Positions 5,630-18,450 of a DNA stretch of 42,130 nt are shown here, piece by piece. The DNA is taken from NCBI GenBank assembly GCA_937138295.1, contig CAKZOX010000210.1:1-42130 (forward strand), written 5' to 3'. Position 1 is the first letter of the stretch. Each line of letters starts with the position of its first letter. The notes under the pieces are model-generated. The model was given only the letters and a program-made list of their open reading frames with translations, made no database searches and was not told where the DNA came from. Origin of the DNA: an uncultured Campylobacteraceae bacterium (GTDB lineage Bacteria; Campylobacterota; Campylobacteria; Campylobacterales; Arcobacteraceae). The translations under genes were made by a program, and so were the position numbers.

Positions 5630-6976
5630 ATGTTGAATAAAGTCAAAAAGTTTACTGACAGTTTAGTAAAAAAAGAAAATTCTGAAATTGAAACTACAAA
5701 TTCAAGAAGAGATTTTTTTAAAAGAACTGCGGCTTATTCTGCAACTGCTGTAGCTGCATCTGTTTTAGCACCAACAACTGTTAAAGCCGATGACCCAGCT
5801 ATTATGAACGAAGCACCATGGGGACAAAAATTAGGTGACCCTGTAGATAAAAATCTATACGGTATGCCATCACCATATGAGCACAATAATATCAGAAGAA
5901 CACATCCAATTTTTTCATCTGGTGATTATTATGCATCTGTTGCAATGTGTCCAATTCATGAATCTGAAGGAATAATCACACCAAATGGATTATTTTTTGT
6001 AAGAAATCATGGTGGTACAGCGCATATTGATCCTAAAGAATGGAGATTAATGATCCATGGTAAAGTTAAAAGAGAAATCGTTTTAACTTTAGAGGATTTA
6101 CAAAGATATCCAAGTGAAACAAGAATCTATTTCATGGAGTGTCCAGCAAATGGTGCACCTGAATGGAGAGGACCACAATTCAATAACTTACAGTTTATGA
6201 AAGGTCTTATGTCTGCTGCTGCTTGGACTGGAGTTATGTTAAAAGATATTTTAGCTGATGTTGGACTTGAAAAAGATGCAGTATGGATGCTTGCTGAAGG
6301 TAGTGATAATGCATCAAATCCAAGAACAATTCCAGTTGAAAAAGCTTTAGATGACGTAATGGTAGTTTGGGCTCAAAATGGAGAAGCATTAAGAGCTGAA
6401 CAAGGTTATCCAGTTAGATTAATTGTTCCAGGTTGGGAAGGTAACTTAAATACAAAATGGTTAAGAAGATTAGAGTTCTCTGATTCTCCTTGGCATTCAA
6501 AAGAAGAAACTTCTAAGTATACAATGTTACAAAAATCTGGTAAAGCTATCAGATTCTTCTGGGTTAATGAAGTTAACTCAGTAATCACATCTCCATGTCC
6601 TGAAAAACCATGGACACACCTTAAAAAAGGTGATAAAGTTGAGATTGAAGGTATTGCGTGGTCTGGTCATGGTACTATCAAAGGTGTTGATATTTCACTT
6701 GATGGTGGTGACAACTGGGTTGAAGCAAAACTTAAAGGTTTAGTATTACCTAAGTCATGGACTAGATTTAGTTATGTGATTGAGTGGGATGGTAAGCCAT
6801 TATTATTAGCAAGTAGATCATATGACGACTTTGGAAACATCCAACCATCAATTGATGAGGAAACTTCAGCAGTTGGTGTTGAGTCTGTTTACCATAGAAA
6901 CGCAATCGTTACTTGGGAAATAACTGAGAAAGGAGTATGTAATAATGTTCAAGTTAGAAAACATAAAAAAGCTTAA
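5630..6976 (+). CDS. soxC: Sulfane dehydrogenase subunit SoxC (molybdoenzyme)
   Basis: A 448-residue member of the sulfite oxidase family. With the cytochrome SoxD it removes electrons from the sulfane sulfur bound to SoxYZ in the periplasm. A twin-arginine signal SRRDFFK at residues 25-31 is followed by a hydrophobic stretch ending near VKA at 53, as expected for a cofactor-loaded exported protein. The likely molybdenum-ligating cysteine is C171 in MECPANG. The C-terminal half carries the dimerisation domain typical of the family. The N-terminus is unusually long, with 24 residues before the twin arginines, but the start is backed by the strongest ribosome-binding site in the window. soxD overlaps its end by 32 nt. 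Confidence 0.93.
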   Translation: MLNKVKKFTDSLVKKENSEIETTNSRRDFFKRTAAYSATAVAASVLAPTTVKADDPAIMNEAPWGQKLGDPVDKNLYGMPSPYEHNNIRRTHPIFSSGDYYASVAMCPIHESEGIITPNGLFFVRNHGGTAHIDPKEWRLMIHGKVKREIVLTLEDLQRYPSETRIYFMECPANGAPEWRGPQFNNLQFMKGLMSAAAWTGVMLKDILADVGLEKDAVWMLAEGSDNASNPRTIPVEKALDDVMVVWAQNGEALRAEQGYPVRLIVPGWEGNLNTKWLRRLEFSDSPWHSKEETSKYTMLQKSGKAIRFFWVNEVNSVITSPCPEKPWTHLKKGDKVEIEGIAWSGHGTIKGVDISLDGGDNWVEAKLKGLVLPKSWTRFSYVIEWDGKPLLLASRSYDDFGNIQPSIDEETSAVGVESVYHRNAIVTWEITEKGVCNNVQVRKHKKA

Positions 6977-8150
6977 TTCTGCTCTTTTAAGTTTAGGAGT
7001 TTCTGCATTAGTAGCAACTTCTTTATCTGCTGCTACTAATGGTGTATCAGTAGATGGTGCAGTTAAATACCCTTCTGTTGACGGAAAATACTCGGAATAT
7101 TACTATAATGATCAAGACATTAAGTATAACAACGGTAGACCAGCAACTCAAAATGAGATTAATGTTTGGAATATTGATGTTAAACCTAATGGTGAAGGTC
7201 TTCCTATGTATGACGTTGAAAAAGGAAAACCTGTATTAGACGAAAATGGAAACCCTAAAAAAGCAGAAGGTTCTGTAGAATGGGGTGAAGAATTATATGA
7301 TGAACAATGTGTAATGTGTCACGGTGAATTTGGTGGAGGGGGTAAAGGTTACCCTATGTTAGCAGGTGGAAGTGTTGCATCTTTAAAGATTCAAAGACTA
7401 AATCCAGCTGATGAAAATCCAAATCCAGATACACCAATTAGAACTATTGGTTCATATTGGCCATATGCAAGTACAATTTTCTGGTATGTATGGGATTCTA
7501 TGCCTTTCCCTCACCCAAAAAGTTTAACTAATAGTGAAACTTATGCTATTACAGCTTATTTATTATCTGTTAATAACATTAAAATTGATGGTGAAGAATT
7601 AGATGATGAATACGTATTAGATAGAGAAAAATTCTTAAAAATTAAAATGCCAAATGAAGATGGTTTCTACCCAGAAGTAGATACAAAAGATCCTCAAGTT
7701 GGTATTGAAAGAATGAGAGCTTTATTATCAGATCCAACAATATATGGTAAAGGTAATAGATGTATGAGTAACTGTATTGAAGAACAATACGGTAAAGGTA
7801 AAACTGTAGATGATTTATTAATGAAAATTAATATTCCTCTTGATGATGGAATTGTACAAACAGTTTCAACTGAAAGAACTTGGAAAGAGCCTGAAGCTGC
7901 TGGTGCGGTAATGGCTGGTCAAGCTGAATATGAAGCAAAATGTTCTGCTTGTCACGGTAACCCTGCTATTGGTGCTCCTGTAGTTGGAGACAAGGAAGCA
8001 TGGGCAGAGGTTATGGAAAAAGGTATCGAAGCAGTTTACGCGAACTCAATCAATGGAATCAACGCAATGCCACCTAAAGGTGGTCATATGGACACTCCAG
8101 ATGACGAGATCAAAATGATCGTTGATTACATGATTAACGCAAGTAAATAA
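6945..8150 (+). CDS. soxD: Sulfane dehydrogenase cytochrome subunit SoxD
   Basis: A 401-residue exported cytochrome c that takes electrons from SoxC. It has a Sec signal peptide (about residues 1-30) and two haem sites, CVMCH at 122-126 and CSACH at 333-337. A further Cys pair at 273 and 277 (CMSNC) lacks a histidine and is not a haem site; it may form a disulfide. The ATG lies inside the end of soxC with AGGAG at 6931-6935, so the two subunits are probably translationally coupled. Length and diheme layout match SoxD of chemolithotrophs. Confidence 0.92.
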   Translation: MFKLENIKKLNSALLSLGVSALVATSLSAATNGVSVDGAVKYPSVDGKYSEYYYNDQDIKYNNGRPATQNEINVWNIDVKPNGEGLPMYDVEKGKPVLDENGNPKKAEGSVEWGEELYDEQCVMCHGEFGGGGKGYPMLAGGSVASLKIQRLNPADENPNPDTPIRTIGSYWPYASTIFWYVWDSMPFPHPKSLTNSETYAITAYLLSVNNIKIDGEELDDEYVLDREKFLKIKMPNEDGFYPEVDTKDPQVGIERMRALLSDPTIYGKGNRCMSNCIEEQYGKGKTVDDLLMKINIPLDDGIVQTVSTERTWKEPEAAGAVMAGQAEYEAKCSACHGNPAIGAPVVGDKEAWAEVMEKGIEAVYANSINGINAMPPKGGHMDTPDDEIKMIVDYMINASK

Positions 8151-8179
8151 TTGATATTTAATTTAGTAAAGGAGATTAA

Positions 8180-8530
8180 ATGAAAGTTTTAAAATCAATA
8201 CTAGCTGCAACTGCAGTTAGTGGAATGTTAGCAACATCAGCTTTTAGTAATGAAGCATTAATTAAAGAGGGTGAAAAAATTTTTAATAATAAAAATTTAG
8301 GTAACTGTTTAGCATGTCATGGAGCAAATGGAAAAGGTATTGAAAGTCCAGGAAGTATGGGGCCAAAACTTACTGGATTAGCTTACTACCCAGATGAGTA
8401 TCTTTATGATGTGATTTATAACCCTAATAAGAAAAATCCTATTTCTCAAATGCCTGCATTTGGTAAAAATGGATGGTTATCTGATTCACAAATAAAAGCG
8501 GTTGTTGCTTATTTAAAAACAATTCAATAA
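8180..8530 (+). CDS. soxX: Monohaem cytochrome SoxX
   Basis: A 116-residue exported c-type cytochrome with a signal peptide of about 23 residues. The haem site CLACH is at 43-47, and the likely axial methionine is M91 in SQMPAFG. SoxX pairs with SoxA, and the complex oxidatively couples thiosulfate to the SoxYZ carrier. The small size and single haem fit SoxX. AAGGAG lies just before the ATG, and the gene follows soxD by 29 nt. Confidence 0.92.
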   Translation: MKVLKSILAATAVSGMLATSAFSNEALIKEGEKIFNNKNLGNCLACHGANGKGIESPGSMGPKLTGLAYYPDEYLYDVIYNPNKKNPISQMPAFGKNGWLSDSQIKAVVAYLKTIQ

Positions 8531-8553
8531 ATAAATTTTAAGAAGGAATAAAA

Positions 8554-9009
8554 ATGAAAAGAAGAAATTTTTTAAGTTTAGGTTTAGGTGCTATGGCTGT
8601 TGCAGCAGTAGCTCCAGCTACATTAAGTGCAGTTAACTTTAGAGAGACTAAGCCAAAGGCATGGGATGCTAAAAACGTTGACACTGGTTTAAATGAAATT
8701 TATGGAACTTCAGCAGCAACTGAAGGTCAAGTTAAATTATCTGCTCCAGATATCGCTGAAAATGGTGCTGTAATTCCAGTATCTGTTTCTACTAAATTAG
8801 ATGCAAAAACTGTAACAGTATTACAAGATGCTAACCCTGAGTCAGTAGTTGCAGTATTTACTGTACCTGAAAATGGAATTGTTGATTACGATATCAGAAT
8901 CAAAATGATGAAAACTGGTAACGTAGTAGCTGTAGTTGAAACTAAAGATGGTAAATTATATAAAGCTTCTAAAGAAGTAAAAGTTACTATCGGTGGATGT
9001 GGTGGATGA
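8554..9009 (+). CDS. soxY: Sulfur carrier subunit SoxY
   Basis: A 151-residue periplasmic carrier. The C-terminus is the diagnostic swinging arm GGCGG, with C149 as the thiol on which thiosulfate is attached and processed. The N-terminus is a twin-arginine signal (KRRNFLSLGLG) ending near LSA, which in known systems also carries SoxZ across. It lies 23 nt after soxX and 70 nt before soxZ. Confidence 0.97.
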   Translation: MKRRNFLSLGLGAMAVAAVAPATLSAVNFRETKPKAWDAKNVDTGLNEIYGTSAATEGQVKLSAPDIAENGAVIPVSVSTKLDAKTVTVLQDANPESVVAVFTVPENGIVDYDIRIKMMKTGNVVAVVETKDGKLYKASKEVKVTIGGCGG

Positions 9010-9079
9010 TTCGACTTTAAGTCTTCATCTATCAAAACTGTATAAATTATAAAAATAAAATATTATAAGGAATATTAAA

Positions 9080-9379
9080 ATGGCAAAAACAAAAATTAAA
9101 GCAAAAGAAAAAAAAGGTATCGTAACTGTTAAGGCTTTGACTAAACACCCAATGTTAAGTCATCAAGAAGCAAAAAGAGCTAAAAAAGAGCCAAACTGGA
9201 TTACTTATTTAGTAGCTAAAAACAATGGTAATGTTGTATATGAAGTATCTACTTCTCAATTCTTATCAAAAAATCCTTACTTAAAGTTCCAATATAAAGG
9301 AACAAAAGGTGATGAGTTAGAGATTTCTTGGGTAGATTTAAAAGGTAATAAAGATACTTCAACTTCAAAAGTTAAGTAA
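9080..9379 (+). CDS. soxZ: Sulfur carrier subunit SoxZ
   Basis: A 99-residue protein of normal SoxZ length with no signal peptide of its own. It forms the heterodimer with SoxY and is thought to be exported with it. The conserved KALTKHPM and the C-terminal ISWVDLKGN segments fit the family's immunoglobulin-like fold. A strong 12-bp inverted repeat follows it. Confidence 0.93.
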   Translation: MAKTKIKAKEKKGIVTVKALTKHPMLSHQEAKRAKKEPNWITYLVAKNNGNVVYEVSTSQFLSKNPYLKFQYKGTKGDELEISWVDLKGNKDTSTSKVK

Positions 9380-9391
9380 TTAATAACATTT

Positions 9392-9418
9392 ATTATTCAA
9401 CTATTTTAGTTGAATAAT
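9392..9418 (+). other. Intercistronic hairpin between soxZ and soxA
   Basis: A perfect 11-bp stem ATTATTCAACT/AGTTGAATAAT surrounds ATTTT (a twelfth A-T pair is possible). No T-run follows, so it is not a classic terminator. It may protect or process the mRNA between the carrier genes and soxA. Confidence 0.7.
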
Positions 9419-9441
9419 TATGTAGCAATAAAGGAGATTAA

Positions 9442-10356
9442 ATGTTAATGAAATTAGCTAAAACAACTGCATTAGTAGCTGTTGCATCTTGTACGTTGAA
9501 TGCAGCAGACTTTAATGCACAAGCTGAAAAAGATAGATTAGAATTAGTTAAGTATTTTGAAGCAAAATTTGCTGATCCATATGCAAACAAAGGAACTTTT
9601 TTCCCATACTCTACGGATGATGAGTTAAAAAACAACTTTGAAAAAGGTTTAAAACATAATGACTTTAACATCGGTAGTTATTCATATGCTAAAGATGCTA
9701 AAAAGACTTATATACCTTTAAAAGAATTCCCACCATATGAACTAAATGTTGAAGATGGTGAAGCTTTATTTAATAAAGCATTTGCAAATGGAAATACTTT
9801 TGCTAATTGTTTCCCTAATCCAGCAATTGGTGATAAATATCCACACTACAGTGAAGAAAGAGGTGAAGTTGTTACTTTAACTCAAGCTGTAAATGAATGT
9901 TTAACATCAAATGGTGAGAAAGCTTGGAATACAAAAAAAGGTAAAATGGCTGACTTACAAGCGTATATTAACTATGCAACTATGGAAGAAGAAAAAACTG
10001 TAAATGTTGAGATTAAATCTCAAGCTGCAGCTGATGCTTATGAAAGAGGTAAAGCATATTATTATACTCAAAGAGGTTATTTAAACTTATCTTGTGCTGA
10101 ATGTCACGTTCAAGGTACTGGACAAAGAGTTAGAAATGAAAAACTATCTCCACTTTTAGGTTCTGTTACACACTTCCCTGTTTATAGATTAAAATGGCAA
10201 GGTATGGGAACACTTGAAAGAAGAATGTCTGGATGTGTTAAAGATCAAGGTCAAGTTCCACCAGGTGATACTAGTAAAGAAATGAAAGAATTATTATTCT
10301 TCATGACTTATATGTCAAATGGTATGAAAATTGACGGTCCAGATATTAGAAAATAA
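9442..10356 (+). CDS. soxA: Thiosulfate-binding cytochrome SoxA, monohaem type
   Basis: A 304-residue periplasmic protein, catalytic partner of SoxX. It has a signal peptide (about 1-21), one haem site CAECH at 218-222, and the catalytic cysteine C265 in ERRMSGC that carries a persulfide in characterised enzymes. The place of the N-terminal haem of diheme SoxA is taken by C123 (FANCFP) without a CxxCH motif. C123 and C153 could form the disulfide known from monohaem SoxA. AAGGAG at 9431-9436 favours the first ATG; a second ATG two codons in is also possible. Confidence 0.94.
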   Translation: MLMKLAKTTALVAVASCTLNAADFNAQAEKDRLELVKYFEAKFADPYANKGTFFPYSTDDELKNNFEKGLKHNDFNIGSYSYAKDAKKTYIPLKEFPPYELNVEDGEALFNKAFANGNTFANCFPNPAIGDKYPHYSEERGEVVTLTQAVNECLTSNGEKAWNTKKGKMADLQAYINYATMEEEKTVNVEIKSQAAADAYERGKAYYYTQRGYLNLSCAECHVQGTGQRVRNEKLSPLLGSVTHFPVYRLKWQGMGTLERRMSGCVKDQGQVPPGDTSKEMKELLFFMTYMSNGMKIDGPDIRK

Positions 10357-10366
10357 GGAGATTGGA

Positions 10367-10801
10367 ATGAAAAAATTAATTAATTTGTCTGTATTAGGAA
10401 TAACTGCATTAGCTTTTACAGCTTGTACAGCTTCAGGACCAACTCCAGCATCTGCTTTAAAAGCAGATGAAAGAGCATTATGTAATGTTTCTGCAAATGG
10501 AATTGAAAAAGTTCTTGCAACTGCAAAAGAATATAATGCTGTTGCACAAAAAGAGGGTGTTGAATTTAGAAGACTTAGTGTTAATAATTCAGCTTTAATT
10601 GTAGCAGTTGAAGAAGCAATCAAAACTGGTGCAAAAGAAGTAAATCCTTTAGATTTCAAAGGTAAAAAATCTAAAACTGTTTTAGATACTAATTTTGCTG
10701 CTGAAAGAGCTTGTAAATTTGCAATCTCTGCTTTAGCTCAAAAAGAGTATGGTAAAACAAATTGGAAATTAGCTGTACCTGGTGATGGGTACAAATATTA
10801 A
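10367..10801 (+). CDS. Small lipoprotein of unknown function in the sox cluster
   Basis: A 144-residue predicted lipoprotein that I do not recognise. The signal MKKLINLSVLGITALAFTAC gives a lipidated C20, and the next residues T and A do not suggest inner-membrane retention. The mature part is mostly helical and alanine-rich, has two further cysteines (in ERALCNVS and ERACKFA), and ends PGDGYKY. The start is fixed by AAGGAG at 10355-10360, 6 nt before this ATG; an ATG-like upstream extension lies inside soxA and lacks such a site. Position directly after soxA, before a terminator, suggests a partner or assembly factor for SoxAX, but this is inference from location only. Confidence 0.8.
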   Translation: MKKLINLSVLGITALAFTACTASGPTPASALKADERALCNVSANGIEKVLATAKEYNAVAQKEGVEFRRLSVNNSALIVAVEEAIKTGAKEVNPLDFKGKKSKTVLDTNFAAERACKFAISALAQKEYGKTNWKLAVPGDGYKY

Positions 10802-10878: not shown

Positions 10879-11529
10879 ATGAAATTTTTAAATAAATTAT
10901 TTCTAGCTTGTAGTATTGCTGCCTTATCATCATCTTCACTTATGGCTGAAGGTAATGATAAGTTTGTAGCTATTAGTAGTGGCGTTAAATCTATTGAAAT
11001 GAATTTAAATGATGAAAAATTCACTTTAATGAGAAATCAAAAAGCGGGTAATATTATTTCTGAGCTATATAATACTACAAACAGAGGAACTCCTCAACCA
11101 ATGATTATAGCTCCAGGTGTTGAAACGCTTGGTGAATTAGAATTTATTGAGTTAATGAAAAAAGCTCAAACTGATGATAATATTGCTATAATTGATTCTA
11201 GAAAGCCAGGTTGGTTTGCTAGATTAAGAATTCCAGGTGCCGTTAATGTTCCATTCACGAATTTCAATGAAAAAGATACAGCTATTGAAATGATGGAAGA
11301 TGAAATGGGAGTTGAAGTAAAAGATAATGGTGAATTAGATTTTACAAACGCAAAAACTATAGCTTTATACTGTAATGGATATTGGTGTGGTCAAACACCA
11401 GGTATGGTAAAAAAAGCGAAATTTGCTTTATTAAAAATGGGTTACCCAGCAGAAAAAATAAAATATTATAGAGGTGGTATGCAAGCATGGACATCTTTAG
11501 GTTTTACTGTTGTTGGTGACGGAAAATAA
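10879..11529 (+). CDS. Exported rhodanese-domain protein
   Basis: A 216-residue protein with a Sec signal peptide (about 1-23) and a C-terminal rhodanese domain (about 80-213). The active-site loop is CNGYWCGQ, with C165 in the catalytic position and a second cysteine at C170. It probably handles sulfane sulfur in the periplasm, perhaps feeding or draining the Sox carrier. A paralogue with the same loop (CNGAWCGQ) lies at 17779-18450. It follows the internal terminator by about 20 nt and precedes soxB by 20 nt, so it is likely co-transcribed with soxB. The physiological substrate cannot be read from sequence. Confidence 0.85.
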   Translation: MKFLNKLFLACSIAALSSSSLMAEGNDKFVAISSGVKSIEMNLNDEKFTLMRNQKAGNIISELYNTTNRGTPQPMIIAPGVETLGELEFIELMKKAQTDDNIAIIDSRKPGWFARLRIPGAVNVPFTNFNEKDTAIEMMEDEMGVEVKDNGELDFTNAKTIALYCNGYWCGQTPGMVKKAKFALLKMGYPAEKIKYYRGGMQAWTSLGFTVVGDGK

Positions 11530-11549: not shown

Positions 11550-13325
11550 ATGAGTAAATTAAGTAGAAGAGAATTTGTATATATGATGGCTGCACTTGGT
11601 GCAACTCCTGTATTCGCTAATTCACATACAAGAATGGCAAATCCAAGTAAATTAGAAGATTATTATAAATTAGATAGCTTTGGTAATGCAAGAATTATGC
11701 ATATGACAGATTCACATGCACAATTACTGCCTGTATATTTTAGAGAGCCAAGTGTTAACTTAGGTTTCCATGGTAACTATGGTAAGCCACCACATATTGT
11801 TGGTGAAAAGTTCTTAGATTATTATGGAATTAAAGGTAACAAAAGATTAGAATATGCATATTCAATGGTAAACTTTGAAGAGCATGCTAAAGCTATGGGT
11901 AGAGTTGGTGGATTTGCTCAAATTAAAACTGTAGTTGATTATTTAAAAAACAACTTTGGTGCTGACAAAACATTATTATTAGATGGTGGAGATACTTGGC
12001 AAGGTTCTTGGACTGCATTACAAACAAGAGGTAAAGACATGGTTGGTGCTATGAACTTACTTGGTGTTGATGTTGCTGTTGGTCACTGGGAATTTACTTA
12101 TGAGGCTGCTGAAGTATTAGAAAATGTTAAATTATTAGATGCTGAATTTATTGCTCAAAACGTTAAAGTAAAAGATGATGCACTATTTAATGAAACAGAA
12201 ATTGCTATGCAAGCTTATGATGGAGATACAGGTCATGCATTCAAGCCATATACTATAAAGAAAATGGGTAATGCTAGAGTTGCTATTATTGGTCAAGCTT
12301 TCCCTTATACAACTATTGCAAATCCTCAAAGATTTATTCCTGATTGGACTTTCTCTATTGATGATGATGGAATGCAAGAATTAGTTAACCAAGTAAGAGA
12401 AGAAGAAAAACCAGATGCTGTAATTGTATTATCTCACAATGGTTATGATACTGATAAGAAAATGGCAGAAGTTTGTACTGGTATTGACTTTATCATGGGT
12501 GGACATACGCATGATGGTGTACCTGAAGCTTATCCTGTTAAAAATGCAGAAGGAACTACTTATGTATGTAATGCTGGTTCTAATGGTAAGTTCTTAAACG
12601 TATTAGATTTAGATATTCAAAATGGAAAAATTAAAGACTTTAAATTTACTTTATTACCAATCTTCTCTGATTTAATTCCAGAAGATCCATCAATGAAGAA
12701 ATATATTGAAGATATTAGAGCTCCATTCAAAAAAGATTTAGATAGAGTTATTGCTACAACTGAGCAAACTTTATTTAGAAGAGGTAACTTCAACGGTTCT
12801 TGGGATCAAATTATTTGTGATGCTTTAATTGATGTTAAGGGTGCTGATATTTCATTATCTCCAGGATTTAGATGGGGAACATCTATTATGCCAGGTCAAG
12901 ATATCACATTTGATGATTTAGCAACTCAAACAGCTATGACTTATCCTGAAACATATGCAAGAGATATTAAAGGTAGTGATATCAAAATTATCTTAGAAGA
13001 TGTTGCAGATAACTTATTTAATGCAGATCCATTCTACCAACAAGGTGGAGATATGGTAAGAACAGGTGGAATTTCATATAGAATTAATCCAACTGCTGAA
13101 ATGGGTAAAAGAATTTCTGACATCACTTTAACAAAAACTGGTGAGAAAATTGATGCTAACAAAATGTACAAAGTTGCAGGTTGGTCTACTGTAGGTTCTA
13201 AATCTCCAGGTGAGCCTGTATGGGAAACTGTAGAAACTTACTTACAAAATGTTAAGCATATTGCTAACTTAAAAGTTGATACTCCTGATATGGTTGGTGT
13301 TAAAGGTAACCCAGGTATTATCTAA
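11550..13325 (+). CDS. soxB: Thiosulfohydrolase SoxB
   Basis: A 591-residue dimanganese hydrolase that releases sulfate from SoxY-bound thiosulfonate. The metallophosphatase motifs are MTDSHAQL (D54, H56), LLDGGDTWQGSW (D148), the SoxB-specific GHWEFTY (H179), LSHNGYDTD and GGHTHDG. The C-terminal nucleotidase-like domain follows. The N-terminus SRREFVYMMAALG is a twin-arginine signal. It is separated from the rest of the cluster by the terminator at 10823-10856 and followed by a structured terminator region. Confidence 0.96.
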   Translation: MSKLSRREFVYMMAALGATPVFANSHTRMANPSKLEDYYKLDSFGNARIMHMTDSHAQLLPVYFREPSVNLGFHGNYGKPPHIVGEKFLDYYGIKGNKRLEYAYSMVNFEEHAKAMGRVGGFAQIKTVVDYLKNNFGADKTLLLDGGDTWQGSWTALQTRGKDMVGAMNLLGVDVAVGHWEFTYEAAEVLENVKLLDAEFIAQNVKVKDDALFNETEIAMQAYDGDTGHAFKPYTIKKMGNARVAIIGQAFPYTTIANPQRFIPDWTFSIDDDGMQELVNQVREEEKPDAVIVLSHNGYDTDKKMAEVCTGIDFIMGGHTHDGVPEAYPVKNAEGTTYVCNAGSNGKFLNVLDLDIQNGKIKDFKFTLLPIFSDLIPEDPSMKKYIEDIRAPFKKDLDRVIATTEQTLFRRGNFNGSWDQIICDALIDVKGADISLSPGFRWGTSIMPGQDITFDDLATQTAMTYPETYARDIKGSDIKIILEDVADNLFNADPFYQQGGDMVRTGGISYRINPTAEMGKRISDITLTKTGEKIDANKMYKVAGWSTVGSKSPGEPVWETVETYLQNVKHIANLKVDTPDMVGVKGNPGII

Positions 13326-13462: not shown

Positions 13463-13909
13463 ATGAAACACAAAGGTAAAGTAATTAACACATATAGTGC
13501 TGATATTAATTCAAAGGGTTTACCAAGGCCATTAGTAGATTTCTTAGAACTTAAAGAGGGATTTGGAATTATTAATGACAAGTTTGCAGGAAAAGAGCTA
13601 AATAAAACTGTGATGATTGTTGGAATTAATAGTTATGAATTAGCAAAAGAAAATGAAATACAAATGGAATATGGTAGTTTAGGTGAAAATATTTTATTAG
13701 ATTTCAACCCACATGATTTTGAAGTGGGAACTATTTTTTGTATAGGTGATAGTGAATTTGAAATCACTGAAAAATGTACAATTTGTAACCATTTATCAGT
13801 ATTTGGTAAAAAGTTACCTAAGCTATTAAGACATTGTAGAGGATTGTATTGTAAAATTAACAAAAGTGGTACAATCACTAAAAATGATGATGTTTATATA
13901 AAGGAATAA
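13463..13909 (+). CDS. MOSC-domain protein
   Basis: A 148-residue cytosolic protein that fits the MOSC fold, a beta-barrel found in molybdenum-cofactor sulfurases and related sulfur-transfer proteins. The visible family signature is YGSLGENILLDF (about 70-81) followed by GTIFCIGDSEFEIT. Cysteines lie at 105 and 108 (CTIC) and at 125 and 130. It has no signal peptide. Its closeness to the molybdoenzyme gene soxC suggests a link to cofactor or sulfur handling, but MOSC substrates vary widely. It is followed by the DsrE-like gene one nucleotide after its stop. Confidence 0.75.
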   Translation: MKHKGKVINTYSADINSKGLPRPLVDFLELKEGFGIINDKFAGKELNKTVMIVGINSYELAKENEIQMEYGSLGENILLDFNPHDFEVGTIFCIGDSEFEITEKCTICNHLSVFGKKLPKLLRHCRGLYCKINKSGTITKNDDVYIKE

Positions 13910-13910
13910 A

Positions 13911-14351
13911 ATGAAAAAGATTTTTTTAGTAATGTTACTATCAATTAGTACATTGTTTGCACAATATGATTTTGCTGAACCAAAGCCTAGTTTTGATGAA
14001 CCTAGAAAAGTTATATTGAGTTTATATGATAAAGATTTAGATAAAGCTAATCATATAATTGGAACTGTTTATAATTTATTAAAAGAGTATCCATCTGAGT
14101 CTTTACAAGTAATTGTTGTTGCATATGGACCTGGAATGAGATTAATAAGAAATGATGGCGATGCAAATTTAATTAAAAGAATGCAATCACTTATGGAATA
14201 TGATGTAGAATTTGTAGCTTGTAGAAATACAATGGAAACTATGAATTGGAAAGAAGATGAGTTTATAGACGATTTAAGGTATGTTCAAGCAGGTTTATTA
14301 GAAGTAATTGAAAAACAAGTTGCAGGTTATATTAATATAAATCCTTATTAA
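13911..14351 (+). CDS. Exported DsrE-like protein
   Basis: A 146-residue protein with a signal peptide (about 1-17, ending LFA) and a DsrE/DsrF-like domain. The motif VVAYGPGMRLI and the strand FVACRNTM with C104 are characteristic of this sulfur-relay fold. Classical DsrE acts in the cytoplasm; this one appears to be periplasmic. It is co-transcribed with the MOSC gene (one-nucleotide gap) and ends at a hairpin terminator. It may hold or transfer protein-bound sulfane sulfur next to the Sox system; the substrate is unknown. Confidence 0.75.
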   Translation: MKKIFLVMLLSISTLFAQYDFAEPKPSFDEPRKVILSLYDKDLDKANHIIGTVYNLLKEYPSESLQVIVVAYGPGMRLIRNDGDANLIKRMQSLMEYDVEFVACRNTMETMNWKEDEFIDDLRYVQAGLLEVIEKQVAGYININPY

Positions 14352-14361
14352 TATTAACTAG

Positions 14362-14391
14362 ATAAATCCATCAAAAGATGGATTTATTTTT
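14362..14391 (+). terminator. Terminator after the DsrE-like gene
   Basis: An 11-bp perfect stem ATAAATCCATC/GATGGATTTAT with an AAAA loop is followed by TTTTA. It sits between two convergent genes and may serve both, though the T-run is only on the forward side. Confidence 0.8.
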
Positions 14392-15703
14392 ATTCAAATT
14401 CCATTTGCTCAAATAATATTGAAGCATTTTGAACAGCTAATTCTTTGTATGTGTCAAGGTGTCTATAAGCATCTTGATCTACTTTATAAGCATCTGCTAA
14501 ACCACCATCATTATCTAAAACTTCTTCAATTTTAGCTCTCATATGTTCTAAATAACCTTTAGTGTATTTTGTTACTGTTGGCATATCAGTTACATCACCA
14601 TGACCAGGAATTACAATTTTTGCATCCAGTGCTTCTATTTCATCCCATAACTCTATCCAATGGGCTGTATCTGTGATTTTGAAAATTGGTAACATTCTTT
14701 GATGAAATGCTAAATCTCCAGCAAATAAAATTTTCTCATTTGGCATCCATAATGCAATATCATCATATTCATGTGCATGTCCAAAGTATAATAATTCAAT
14801 TTTTTTATTTCCTAAATCTAACACCATTTTATCTTTGAAAGTTTCATCTGGTAAAACAATTTTAGTTCCAACAATTTTATCTTTCATAATTCTTGTATGT
14901 CTTTTTAGTATAGCTTCACCATCTCCTGCTAATTCTTTTTTAGAAATTTCATGGGCGATGATAGTTGCACCTTGTTCTTTCCAGTAATTAGAACCAAGCA
15001 TAGCATGACTTTGAGAGTTTTCAAGTACTACATATTTTATAGGTTTATTTGAAATTTTTTTGATCTCTTCATGTAATGCTTTTGCTAACATATAATTACC
15101 ACTTGCATTCCATACAACACCAAAATCTTTACCTTCAATAAAACCTAAGTTATTGTTATGACCATTGTTTTCATATCTTGGAGGTTGAGTTGCACCAATT
15201 GAAGTGTAAACACCTTCACTTACTTTTTTTAGTTTGTTGTATAAAGGCGATTCTAAATAAAAGTCTAATGAACTAATTTTTTGATTAGCTTCACTCCAAC
15301 CTTTATAAGAATCTTTGTAATGAATTACATTTTTATAACCCATATCTTTTAACTGTTTTGCAGCAAGTAAACTAATATTTCCTGTGTAACAATAAACAAC
15401 AAATTTATCTTCAGGTTTAACAGAATCCTCAATCATAAATTCTAGTTTATCCCTTGAAATAAAATCAAGATTGTTTGTTTTAATATAACCACCTTGAGCT
15501 AGAATATCACTTTTATTTCTAACATCAATTACTTTAATGTTTGGTTCTTTTTCTAATAGTTTTACAAGTTCACTTGTACCTATACTATTCATTTGGCTTT
15601 GAACATTAGCAACTAAATCTTTTGAAGTTACTACATCAGCACTTGAGATTACTGGAAACAGTAATGATGCTGCGAAAATTGGTTTAATAAGTTTTTTTAA
15701 CAT
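14390..15703 (-). CDS. Exported rhodanese / metallo-beta-lactamase-fold fusion
   Basis: A 437-residue protein with a signal peptide (about 1-22), a rhodanese domain (about 40-140, active-site C105 in VVYCYTGN) and a metallo-beta-lactamase domain (about 160-400). Later metal-site positions are kept: H311 in FGHAH, D330 in LFAGDLAF and H368 in IPGHGD. The first motif, normally HxHxDH, reads N229-S-Q-S-H-A234, so four ligands appear replaced. The architecture resembles SoxH-type hydrolases seen near sox genes, but catalysis by the usual binuclear zinc site is doubtful. AAGGAT precedes the ATG. It is convergent with the MOSC/DsrE pair and divergent from the hydrolase gene. Confidence 0.8.
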   Translation of the reverse strand: MLKKLIKPIFAASLLFPVISSADVVTSKDLVANVQSQMNSIGTSELVKLLEKEPNIKVIDVRNKSDILAQGGYIKTNNLDFISRDKLEFMIEDSVKPEDKFVVYCYTGNISLLAAKQLKDMGYKNVIHYKDSYKGWSEANQKISSLDFYLESPLYNKLKKVSEGVYTSIGATQPPRYENNGHNNNLGFIEGKDFGVVWNASGNYMLAKALHEEIKKISNKPIKYVVLENSQSHAMLGSNYWKEQGATIIAHEISKKELAGDGEAILKRHTRIMKDKIVGTKIVLPDETFKDKMVLDLGNKKIELLYFGHAHEYDDIALWMPNEKILFAGDLAFHQRMLPIFKITDTAHWIELWDEIEALDAKIVIPGHGDVTDMPTVTKYTKGYLEHMRAKIEEVLDNDGGLADAYKVDQDAYRHLDTYKELAVQNASILFEQMEFE

Positions 15704-15810: not shown

Positions 15811-16590
15811 ATGACAAAGAAAATTTATGCAACTATGGCCCTAATTTCAGGTATCTCTTTATCAGCAGCTTCAGTTACACAGAATCAATGTAACGCAAAA
15901 GGTGATGATTTTATTTTTGCTGGTGGAGAGTGTATTGAGTATAGAGCTTTTGAAGGAGATAGTGAATCTATCAATTTTATTGTACATGGTACATGGCCTG
16001 AGGGTGCAAATACATTAGGTAGATATGGACCATTCGCTGAAACAGTAAACTTTAATACGGATATAACAACTATTGCTGTAGCACTTCCTGGATATTCAGG
16101 TTCATCTACTAATAACTTTACAGCACTTGCACATGAAGGTGTAAAAAATTTAGCTGCAAAAAAAGAGTATGTTTTATTCTTAGGTGAATTAATTCAAGCA
16201 TTTAAAGATAAATATGAGGCGCAAGGAGTTAATTATATAGGACACTCTGCAGCTGCACTTATGGGTGGAACTTTAACAGGGTTAAAACCTGAATTAATAA
16301 ACAATGCTATGTTAGTTGGTGGTAGATATGATATTCAAAAAGAAACAGGAAACAAAGATTTAATTTCAATGTCTAATGTTTTAGATAATGTTAGTAAAGA
16401 CACGAATTTTGTTTTTGTATATGGTACTGCTGATAAAATCTCAAAACCAGAAGTTACAACATCTTTTTATGAAATAGCAAAAAATAGTGGTTTAAATGCT
16501 ACATTAGTAAAAGTACAAGGTGCTGAACATGTTGATCTTGATATGACAGATCCTGCAGTTGAGGCATTTACTAATTTAGTAAGTGAATAA
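15811..16590 (+). CDS. Exported alpha/beta hydrolase
   Basis: A 259-residue protein with a signal peptide (about 1-20) and an alpha/beta-hydrolase fold. The likely triad is S146 in the nucleophile elbow GHSAAA, D208 in YGTADK and H240 in GAEHVD. An oxyanion-hole HG is present in VHGTWPEG. Esterase, thioesterase or lipase activity is possible; the substrate cannot be inferred. It is divergent from the rhodanese/MBL gene across a short shared promoter region and stands alone, closed by a terminator. Confidence 0.75.
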   Translation: MTKKIYATMALISGISLSAASVTQNQCNAKGDDFIFAGGECIEYRAFEGDSESINFIVHGTWPEGANTLGRYGPFAETVNFNTDITTIAVALPGYSGSSTNNFTALAHEGVKNLAAKKEYVLFLGELIQAFKDKYEAQGVNYIGHSAAALMGGTLTGLKPELINNAMLVGGRYDIQKETGNKDLISMSNVLDNVSKDTNFVFVYGTADKISKPEVTTSFYEIAKNSGLNATLVKVQGAEHVDLDMTDPAVEAFTNLVSE

Positions 16591-17763: not shown

Positions 17764-17780
17764 AAGTAAACTTCTACTTT
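17757..17780. terminator. Compact shared hairpin between convergent genes
   Basis: A 10-bp perfect stem AAAGTAGAAG/CTTCTACTTT with a TAAA loop spans both stop codons of the convergent genes on either side. It probably ends transcription from both directions. Confidence 0.7.
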
Positions 17781-18450
17781 ATTCAGGTTTTATAGTTGGA
17801 AATCCCAAACTAATCCAAGATTGAATTCCACCTCTATACCATTTTAATTTTTCTTCTGGATATCCATGTCTTATGTATTGTTTCATAGCCTCAGGAGATT
17901 GTCCACACCATGCACCATTACAAAATAACAACAACGTTTTAGCTTCAGAATAATCATATTTACCATCAACAATTTTTACATTAAATAATTCCATCATAGC
18001 ATCATATTCTTTTGCAAATTGTACTTTATTTGCATATGTATATGGAGCATTAATAGCACTTGGAATTGTAGAGTGGTAGAACCAGTCTTCTGTTCTTGAA
18101 TCAACTAATAAATAGTTATCATCAAAAGTTGCTTTTTGAATGAATTCTAATACTTCAACTTCACCATATGTTTCAACTTTATCTGAGAATTTAATGGGAG
18201 ATACTTTTCCCATATACGTAACAAAATCTCTTTTACACTTTTCAGGAATTTTACTACTTGCAGCATTTCCACCTAAAACTACTGTAGGGTCAAATTTTAT
18301 ATTAAAACACTCAGCAGGTTTCTCTCTTTTTATAATTATATTTTTATCTTCACCATTAACATCTGTATAGCTAGTTTCAACACCTATTGTTTCTAATCTT
18401 GATGAGAATAAAAATGTTGTAATTAGTAATATAATTGATAATATTTTCAT
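17779..18450 (-). CDS. Exported rhodanese-domain protein, second copy
   Basis: A 223-residue protein with a signal peptide (about 1-17) and a C-terminal rhodanese domain. The active loop CNGAWCGQ (C177, C182) and the following WYRGGIQSWISLGF closely match the rhodanese next to soxB (CNGYWCGQ, YYRGGMQAWTSLGF). The N-terminal part differs and carries two extra cysteines (C48, C72). AAAGGAT lies before the ATG. It stands alone between the HD-GYP-like gene and the chemoreceptor. Likely a periplasmic sulfane-sulfur enzyme or binding protein; its partner is unknown. Confidence 0.82.
   Translation of the reverse strand: MKILSIILLITTFLFSSRLETIGVETSYTDVNGEDKNIIIKREKPAECFNIKFDPTVVLGGNAASSKIPEKCKRDFVTYMGKVSPIKFSDKVETYGEVEVLEFIQKATFDDNYLLVDSRTEDWFYHSTIPSAINAPYTYANKVQFAKEYDAMMELFNVKIVDGKYDYSEAKTLLLFCNGAWCGQSPEAMKQYIRHGYPEEKLKWYRGGIQSWISLGFPTIKPE

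Follow-up and report, generated by a model that had tools for sequence, protein, structure and literature searches.

Rhodanese-fused SoxH with an altered metallo-beta-lactamase motif beside the sox genes of an Arcobacteraceae genome

A gene lying beside the sox genes of an uncultured Campylobacteraceae bacterium (Arcobacteraceae in the GTDB taxonomy) almost certainly encodes SoxH, a protein of the metallo-beta-lactamase (MBL) fold, here carrying a rhodanese domain fused to its N-terminal side. The aligned relatives show the altered first metal motif of this protein, E-N-x-Q-x-H, to be a hallmark of the SoxH clade, in which the putative pocket is strictly conserved. On balance, we favour the reading that the protein is a rhodanese-fused SoxH with a rewired metal site, which would serve as a periplasmic accessory enzyme of sulfur oxidation. 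The stretch of DNA that was analysed, referred to here as the window, comprises 42,130 nucleotides (contig CAKZOX010000210.1 of assembly GCA_937138295.1; C210 of genome G000 in our numbering), and its source genome is a draft, 86.75% complete and 6.33% contaminated.

The fusion gene and its sox neighbourhood

The open reading frame (ORF) at 14390-15703 on the reverse strand, stop codon included, starts with ATG and encodes 437 amino acids, which form a clade with the SoxH of Paracoccus pantotrophus. Its N-terminus resembles a Sec signal, and a putative export signal, judged by eye, covers approximately residues 1-22 (15638-15703, reverse strand), with a pLDDT below 50 at residues 1-16 in the AF2 model. 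The rhodanese domain occupies residues 45-138 (15290-15571, reverse strand; Pfam PF00581, 44.1 bits against a cut-off of 22.2), and its active loop reads C105-Y-T-G-N-I110; the catalytic cysteine is intact, as the first-pass annotation had it, with the qualification that Ile110 stands where the loop-closing arginine is usual among relatives. The MBL-fold (SoxH) domain, residues 157-437, takes up 14390-15235 of the reverse strand together with the stop codon, and is defined by a match to the TIGR04559 profile, the AF2 model, and Foldseek and VIA matches. Furthermore, Lactamase_B (Pfam PF00753) matches residues 188-368 with 34.1 bits against a cut-off of 22.7, which places the domain in the MBL-fold superfamily.

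The position beside the Sox system, also claimed at first pass, is borne out by the neighbouring genes. The forward strand carries, in this order, soxC, a soxD-like cytochrome, a small cytochrome c, soxY, soxZ and soxA (5630-10356), a 156-residue ORF, a rhodanese gene, soxB (11550-13325), a MOSC-domain gene and a DsrE-like gene. SoxB matches TIGR04486 with 833 bits, above cut-off, at 11562-13298 (G000:C210), and soxC (TIGR04555) and soxA (TIGR04484), both upstream, likewise exceed their cut-offs, while the names of soxY, soxZ and the cytochromes come only from gene order and visual reading. The genes for the MOSC-domain protein (13463-13909; Pfam MOSC, 36.2 bits) and the DsrE-like protein (13911-14351; Pfam DsrE, 37.7 bits) also lie close to SoxH in several Campylobacterota. 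The dsrE and soxH genes converge, and between them is a terminator-like hairpin (14360-14389; -14.4 kcal/mol, z -4.5, none of 200 shuffles being as stable), and an alpha/beta-hydrolase gene (15811-16590) is divergent from soxH. The 156-residue ORF (10331-10801), which has a TTG start overlapping the end of soxA and gave no Pfam match, sits between soxA and the rhodanese gene and was found in five sox clusters. Two more rhodaneses of the window (10879-11529 and 17779-18450) have a CNGxWCGQxP loop and, by eye, putative export signals; the latter also has a weak match, below cut-off, to TIGR03865 (PQQ-associated CXXCW).

The first motif and its conservation among SoxH proteins

Canonical MBL metallo-hydrolases carry the dinuclear zinc motif HxHxDH. 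At its expected place the window protein has N229-S230-Q231-S232-H233-A234, preceded by E228, within the segment E-N-S-Q-S-H-A-M (residues 228-235; 14999-15022, reverse strand); His311, Asp330 and His368 are still present, as had been stated at first pass. The non-canonical reading of this motif stands, as it aligns without gaps both to CphA (3sw3; phmmer) and to L002 (THVHDDH) and L003 (SHEHDDH), two canonical paralogues encoded in the window's genome. In the CphA/MBL numbering, we take N229 to lie under H/N116, Q231 under H118, H233 under D120, A234 under H/R121, H311 under H196, D330 under position 221 and H368 under H263. In the first motif, the two zinc-1 histidines have thus given way to amides and the usual aspartate to histidine.

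The homologue search returned 65 loci, 49 of which (L009-L057) match the MBL domain wholly or partly and 16 the rhodanese part only. Our alignment of 46 rows contains the window protein and 45 of these 49, and omits L044 and L053 (truncated at contig ends), L055 (in-frame stops) and L052 (divergent C-terminus). The 46 proteins, with a median pairwise identity of 0.51, come from Campylobacterota and from Alpha-, Beta- and Gammaproteobacteria, and E-N-x-Q-x-H is invariant across them: E228, N229, Q231, H233, A234, H311, D330, H368 and the loop H182-N-N-N185 (15149-15160, reverse strand), a candidate pocket element, are the same in every row. Invariance extends to 42 of the 281 MBL-domain columns and to all seven of the mapped pocket positions (hypergeometric P 1e-6, with phylogeny ignored and columns treated as independent though they are not), which argues against decay. 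In the wider set, 60 of the 61 longer rows having Q231 and H233 show E-N-x-Q-x-H. Among the 13 positions inspected in these 61 rows, A234 is replaced by Gly in L093 and by Ser in L075, and the distant L076 deviates at seven. In L052, Asn replaces D315 and Pro replaces H368 within the divergent C-terminus, which counts against the reading of H368. The histidine at position 182 occurs in none of the 33 rows of canonical or N-H-D-R type. Two tandem SoxH ORFs (L028, L029) were seen in Gammaproteobacteria.

HxHxDH is ancestral in the MBL superfamily. A maximum-likelihood tree, which is unrooted, was built from 94 MBL domains out of 98 aligned rows, leaving out L053, L055, L080 and L095, each shorter than 230 residues. 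The E-N-x-Q-x-H proteins, including those of the window and of P. pantotrophus, form one clade of 60 rows (support 98/98), which grows to 61 rows with L076 (100/100). The 24 rows of the canonical HHDH type lie on one side of one branch (99/95), as do the nine of the N-H-D-R type on that of another (100/99). The tree program flagged L076 as a long branch of unsure placement and L074, the P. pantotrophus locus, as one of the rows of unusual make-up. The first-pass annotation had described the motif as lost by this protein; a private loss in the window genome is rejected, as the altered motif is family-wide and common to SoxH, that of P. pantotrophus included. A third class of Campylobacterota MBL proteins, T/S-N-x-H-D-D-R (L113-L116, L118, L131, L097, L101, and L007 of the window's genome), is another supported clade with a rewired pocket, in which Glu or Asn stands where SoxH has H311, and Asn where it has D330; no sox gene was detected in the four regions of this class that were examined (L133, L134, L145 and L152).

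A rhodanese domain was matched in 57 of 73 SoxH ORFs and in none of the other 16, duplicate genome records included. The rhodanese cysteine is kept in 53 of the 57 fused ORFs and replaced in four (Ser in L049; Asp in L033, L037 and L039); since it is absent from these and the whole domain is unmatched in 16 of 73, the cysteine is not essential to the SoxH family. Among the 34 rows covering position 110, 30 have Arg, three have Ile (the window protein being one of them) and one has Lys. The fused rows are confined to one clade of 47 rows (98/96), of which L052 and L057 are the sole members with no matched rhodanese; a single fusion event is therefore the simplest reading of these sequences. Unfused SoxH proteins have the same pocket as the fused ones.

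The AF2 model, computed on the 46-row alignment, has a mean pLDDT of 92.5, with 95-98 reached in those 10-residue blocks that include motif residues. Its strands stop just ahead of the first motif, D330 and H368; strands ending just before the metal motifs are usual in MBL proteins. In the best 50 of 986 Foldseek matches, 8d2z ranks first (E 3.9e-23), followed by chlorothalonil dehalogenase and CphA and, lower, by alkylsulfatases; the VIA Z scores are 32.4 for 8d2z, 32.2 for chlorothalonil dehalogenase and up to 27.4 for CphA. The presence of alkylsulfatases, which are sulfate-releasing MBL proteins, among these 50 matches of the predicted model may be taken as a weak hint of a sulfur role.

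MBL proteins beside soxB and in related systems

In the Arcobacteraceae, SoxB exceeds its cut-off in 80 of 104 genomes, and SoxH is found at more than 50% identity in 19 of 104, the window genome counted; 18 of these 19 also have SoxB, the exception being G072 (84% complete). Adjacency of soxB and MBL genes was tallied by hand within 10 kb on one contig, and the counts, which take every genome singly, related ones included, are lower bounds, given that they depend on the matches listed and that contigs end. On this basis, SoxH lies by SoxB in at least 12 genomes (G000, G037, G039, G065, G067, G083 and G093-G098), another MBL does so in at least 25, and both do in at least one (G083, seen at L149), while among the matches listed neither was by SoxB in 44 of the 80 SoxB genomes. 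All 25 of the non-SoxH MBL proteins by SoxB read T-H-x-H-D-D-H. At L139, soxB and a canonical MBL are followed by two ORFs that resemble this MBL and alternate with others of dsrE-like type; neither of the two MBL-like ORFs showed the first motif. In the rest of the phylum, 25 of 397 genomes matched at 1e-30, and seven of them have SoxH, with the motif read in six and the seventh (G045) being a fragment. G418, of another family, has the genes from soxC to soxB, dsrE, MOSC and SoxH in line. Of 11 examined regions with non-SoxH matches in other families, nine contain soxB, a canonical MBL and dsrE, and in the two of N-H-D-R type no sox gene was detected. The canonical Campylobacterota protein by soxB (L099, L100, L121, L124) shares with the window protein the MBL fold and the place near soxB and dsrE, but has H-x-H-D-D-H, belongs to a separate clade, and is encoded by ORFs near 310 residues with no room for a rhodanese. 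In the Campylobacterota, the name SoxH may therefore cover two proteins.

Within reach of SoxH, soxB was found at five (L012-L015 and L017) of ten Campylobacterota loci (L009-L017 and L044), and soxB or soxC at five Rhodobacterales loci (L040, L043, L074, L075, L174) and one of Marinobacter (L051). No sox gene was detected within 7 kb at 22 other Pseudomonadota loci (L018-L039), several of which are on short contigs. Besides SoxH, 21 neighbour families are common to at least four of 39 Pseudomonadota loci, and as almost all are restricted to a Thioglobus-like or a Neptunomonas-like group, they point to shared lineage rather than function.

The closest described counterpart is SoxH of P. pantotrophus (L074:11926-12876). 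Its cluster runs soxX, soxY, soxA, soxB, soxC, two cytochromes, a pyridine-nucleotide-disulfide-type protein, a canonical MBL and SoxH, the five named sox genes exceeding the NCBIfam cut-offs. The canonical MBL (303 residues, THGHPDH) directly precedes SoxH (317 residues, ENGQGHA), and these are what we take to be the lengths of SoxG and SoxH. The window protein shares with this SoxH the supported clade, a sox cluster, and E-N-x-Q-x-H-A with the His/Asp/His set (H233, D330, H368) and H311, but differs in its rhodanese domain, none being matched in P. pantotrophus SoxH; the two are 43% identical over the MBL domain. Comparing homologues near sox genes at the first motif, as the first-pass annotation had proposed, yields the same altered motif among SoxH proteins, also in the P. 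pantotrophus cluster. In a 2001 study in J. Bacteriol., purified P. pantotrophus SoxH reportedly contained sub-stoichiometric zinc and copper.

Other relatives stand further off. The best NCBIfam profile for the window protein is TIGR04559 (SoxH_rel_PQQ_2, quinoprotein relay system zinc metallohydrolase 2), at 162.6 bits over residues 157-437; this is below the curated cut-off of 280, as are the 136.6 bits of P. pantotrophus SoxH, and filing the protein under this family was rejected. The Sinorhizobium plasmid relative in this comparison, with a putative PQQ role, is 27.5% identical and has the canonical THMHPDH. CphA, a subclass B2 metallo-beta-lactamase, resembles the window protein in fold and in Asn at position 116, but has His118, Asp120 and a native Cys221 where the latter has Gln, His and Asp. 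The TGGQDHR-type proteins encoded on plasmids of the Alphaproteobacteria Hoeflea and Pannonibacter (L076, L173) share Q231 and H233, but N229 is replaced by Gly and A234 by Arg, the HNNN loop is absent and identity is about 30%; L076, the only one in the tree, sits at the base of SoxH on its long, unsurely placed branch. The Hoeflea gene has neighbours for ArsR, a permease, thioredoxin and OsmC, and a rhodanese gene is near that of Pannonibacter.

It has been proposed that SoxH takes over from SoxB in releasing sulfate from SoxY (PMC11237559, PMC10045233 and PMC9122950), and PMC11237559 considers this improbable for a symbiont which, like the window genome, carries soxB as well. These proposals concern Campylobacterota, in which the gene next to soxB or soxCDYZ may be of the canonical MBL class. 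PQQ-alcohol-dehydrogenase clusters also bring together genes for a rhodanese and for SoxYZ-like and SoxH-like proteins (PMC12997753), in keeping with a functional connection of rhodaneses to SoxH-like proteins. Within the literature at hand, mainly titles and abstract openings, the altered motif is not described and no item unites SoxH, metallo-beta-lactamase and rhodanese.

The probable metal site, alternative explanations and implications

SoxH probably has an altered but real metal site, judging from its conserved residues. Such a site is likelier than none because H233 takes the place of the aspartate, leaving H233, D330 and H368 together with H311. The claim of a lost metal motif therefore stands insofar as HxHxDH is absent, and is overstated insofar as the conserved histidine at the aspartate position leaves a His/Asp/His set. 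In the mechanism we propose, one metal would be bound by His233, Asp330 and His368, with His311 and perhaps His182 nearby, at a single new-made site instead of the usual two-zinc site. As a periplasmic enzyme that assists sulfur oxidation, SoxH might cleave or otherwise process a sulfur or sulfonate moiety borne by SoxYZ or by a small persulfide; where a rhodanese is fused, its Cys105 could give sulfane sulfur to the SoxH metal site or take it from there. The changed chemistry suggested at first pass is plausible; any particular sulfur chemistry can be put forward only tentatively.

The alternatives bear on whether this pocket binds metal and what it does with it. The MBL domain might be a non-catalytic pseudo-enzyme, a sulfur-binding protein or scaffold with the rhodanese doing the work beside Sox, given that Asn and Gln fill the zinc-1 positions of the first motif, that the usual aspartate is absent and that most fused ORFs keep the rhodanese cysteine; yet the invariance of every mapped pocket position in the 46 rows, and the same pocket in unfused SoxH, speak against it, so that we regard it as rather unlikely, and the pure sulfur-binding partner envisaged by the first-pass annotation loses ground. 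A persulfide-oxygenase-like enzyme, using one iron or copper in the altered site to oxidise a persulfide supplied by the rhodanese, would suit an MBL fold whose His/Asp residues may hold a single metal, as well as the rhodanese fusion and the sulfur-oxidation context, and some persulfide dioxygenases do carry fused rhodanese domains. These ETHE1-type enzymes, however, take one iron ligand from the first histidine of the first motif, where the window protein has Asn229, and no persulfide dioxygenase is among the best 50 of the 986 Foldseek matches; this explanation appears improbable. As for the idea of an ordinary zinc hydrolase with a motif misread because of faulty alignment or a frameshift, nothing was found in its favour, and the ungapped register, the intact ORF and the clade-wide motif reduce its probability to almost nil; misalignment, which had been raised at first pass as a ground for withdrawing the reading, is thereby out.

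The rewired, metal-binding SoxH that we favour could also be pictured as an MBL subclass with a mononuclear site, perhaps of copper or iron, performing sulfur-sulfur or redox chemistry on rhodanese-delivered sulfur, at a sox-cluster position occupied in other Campylobacterota by a canonical HxHxDH MBL. This is a speculative picture that we hold to be doubtful; if true, two different active sites would serve one pathway step. The rhodanese-fused SoxH is a variant of a known family: the facts are real, their meaning is modest, and the non-canonical pocket deserves biochemistry. If the SoxH site is rewired, the SoxH annotation would be misleading, and models in which SoxH replaces SoxB would have to state which MBL is meant, both types occurring beside soxB in Campylobacterota. 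The fused rhodanese offers a clue to the SoxH substrate, and the swapped histidine is a single testable residue.
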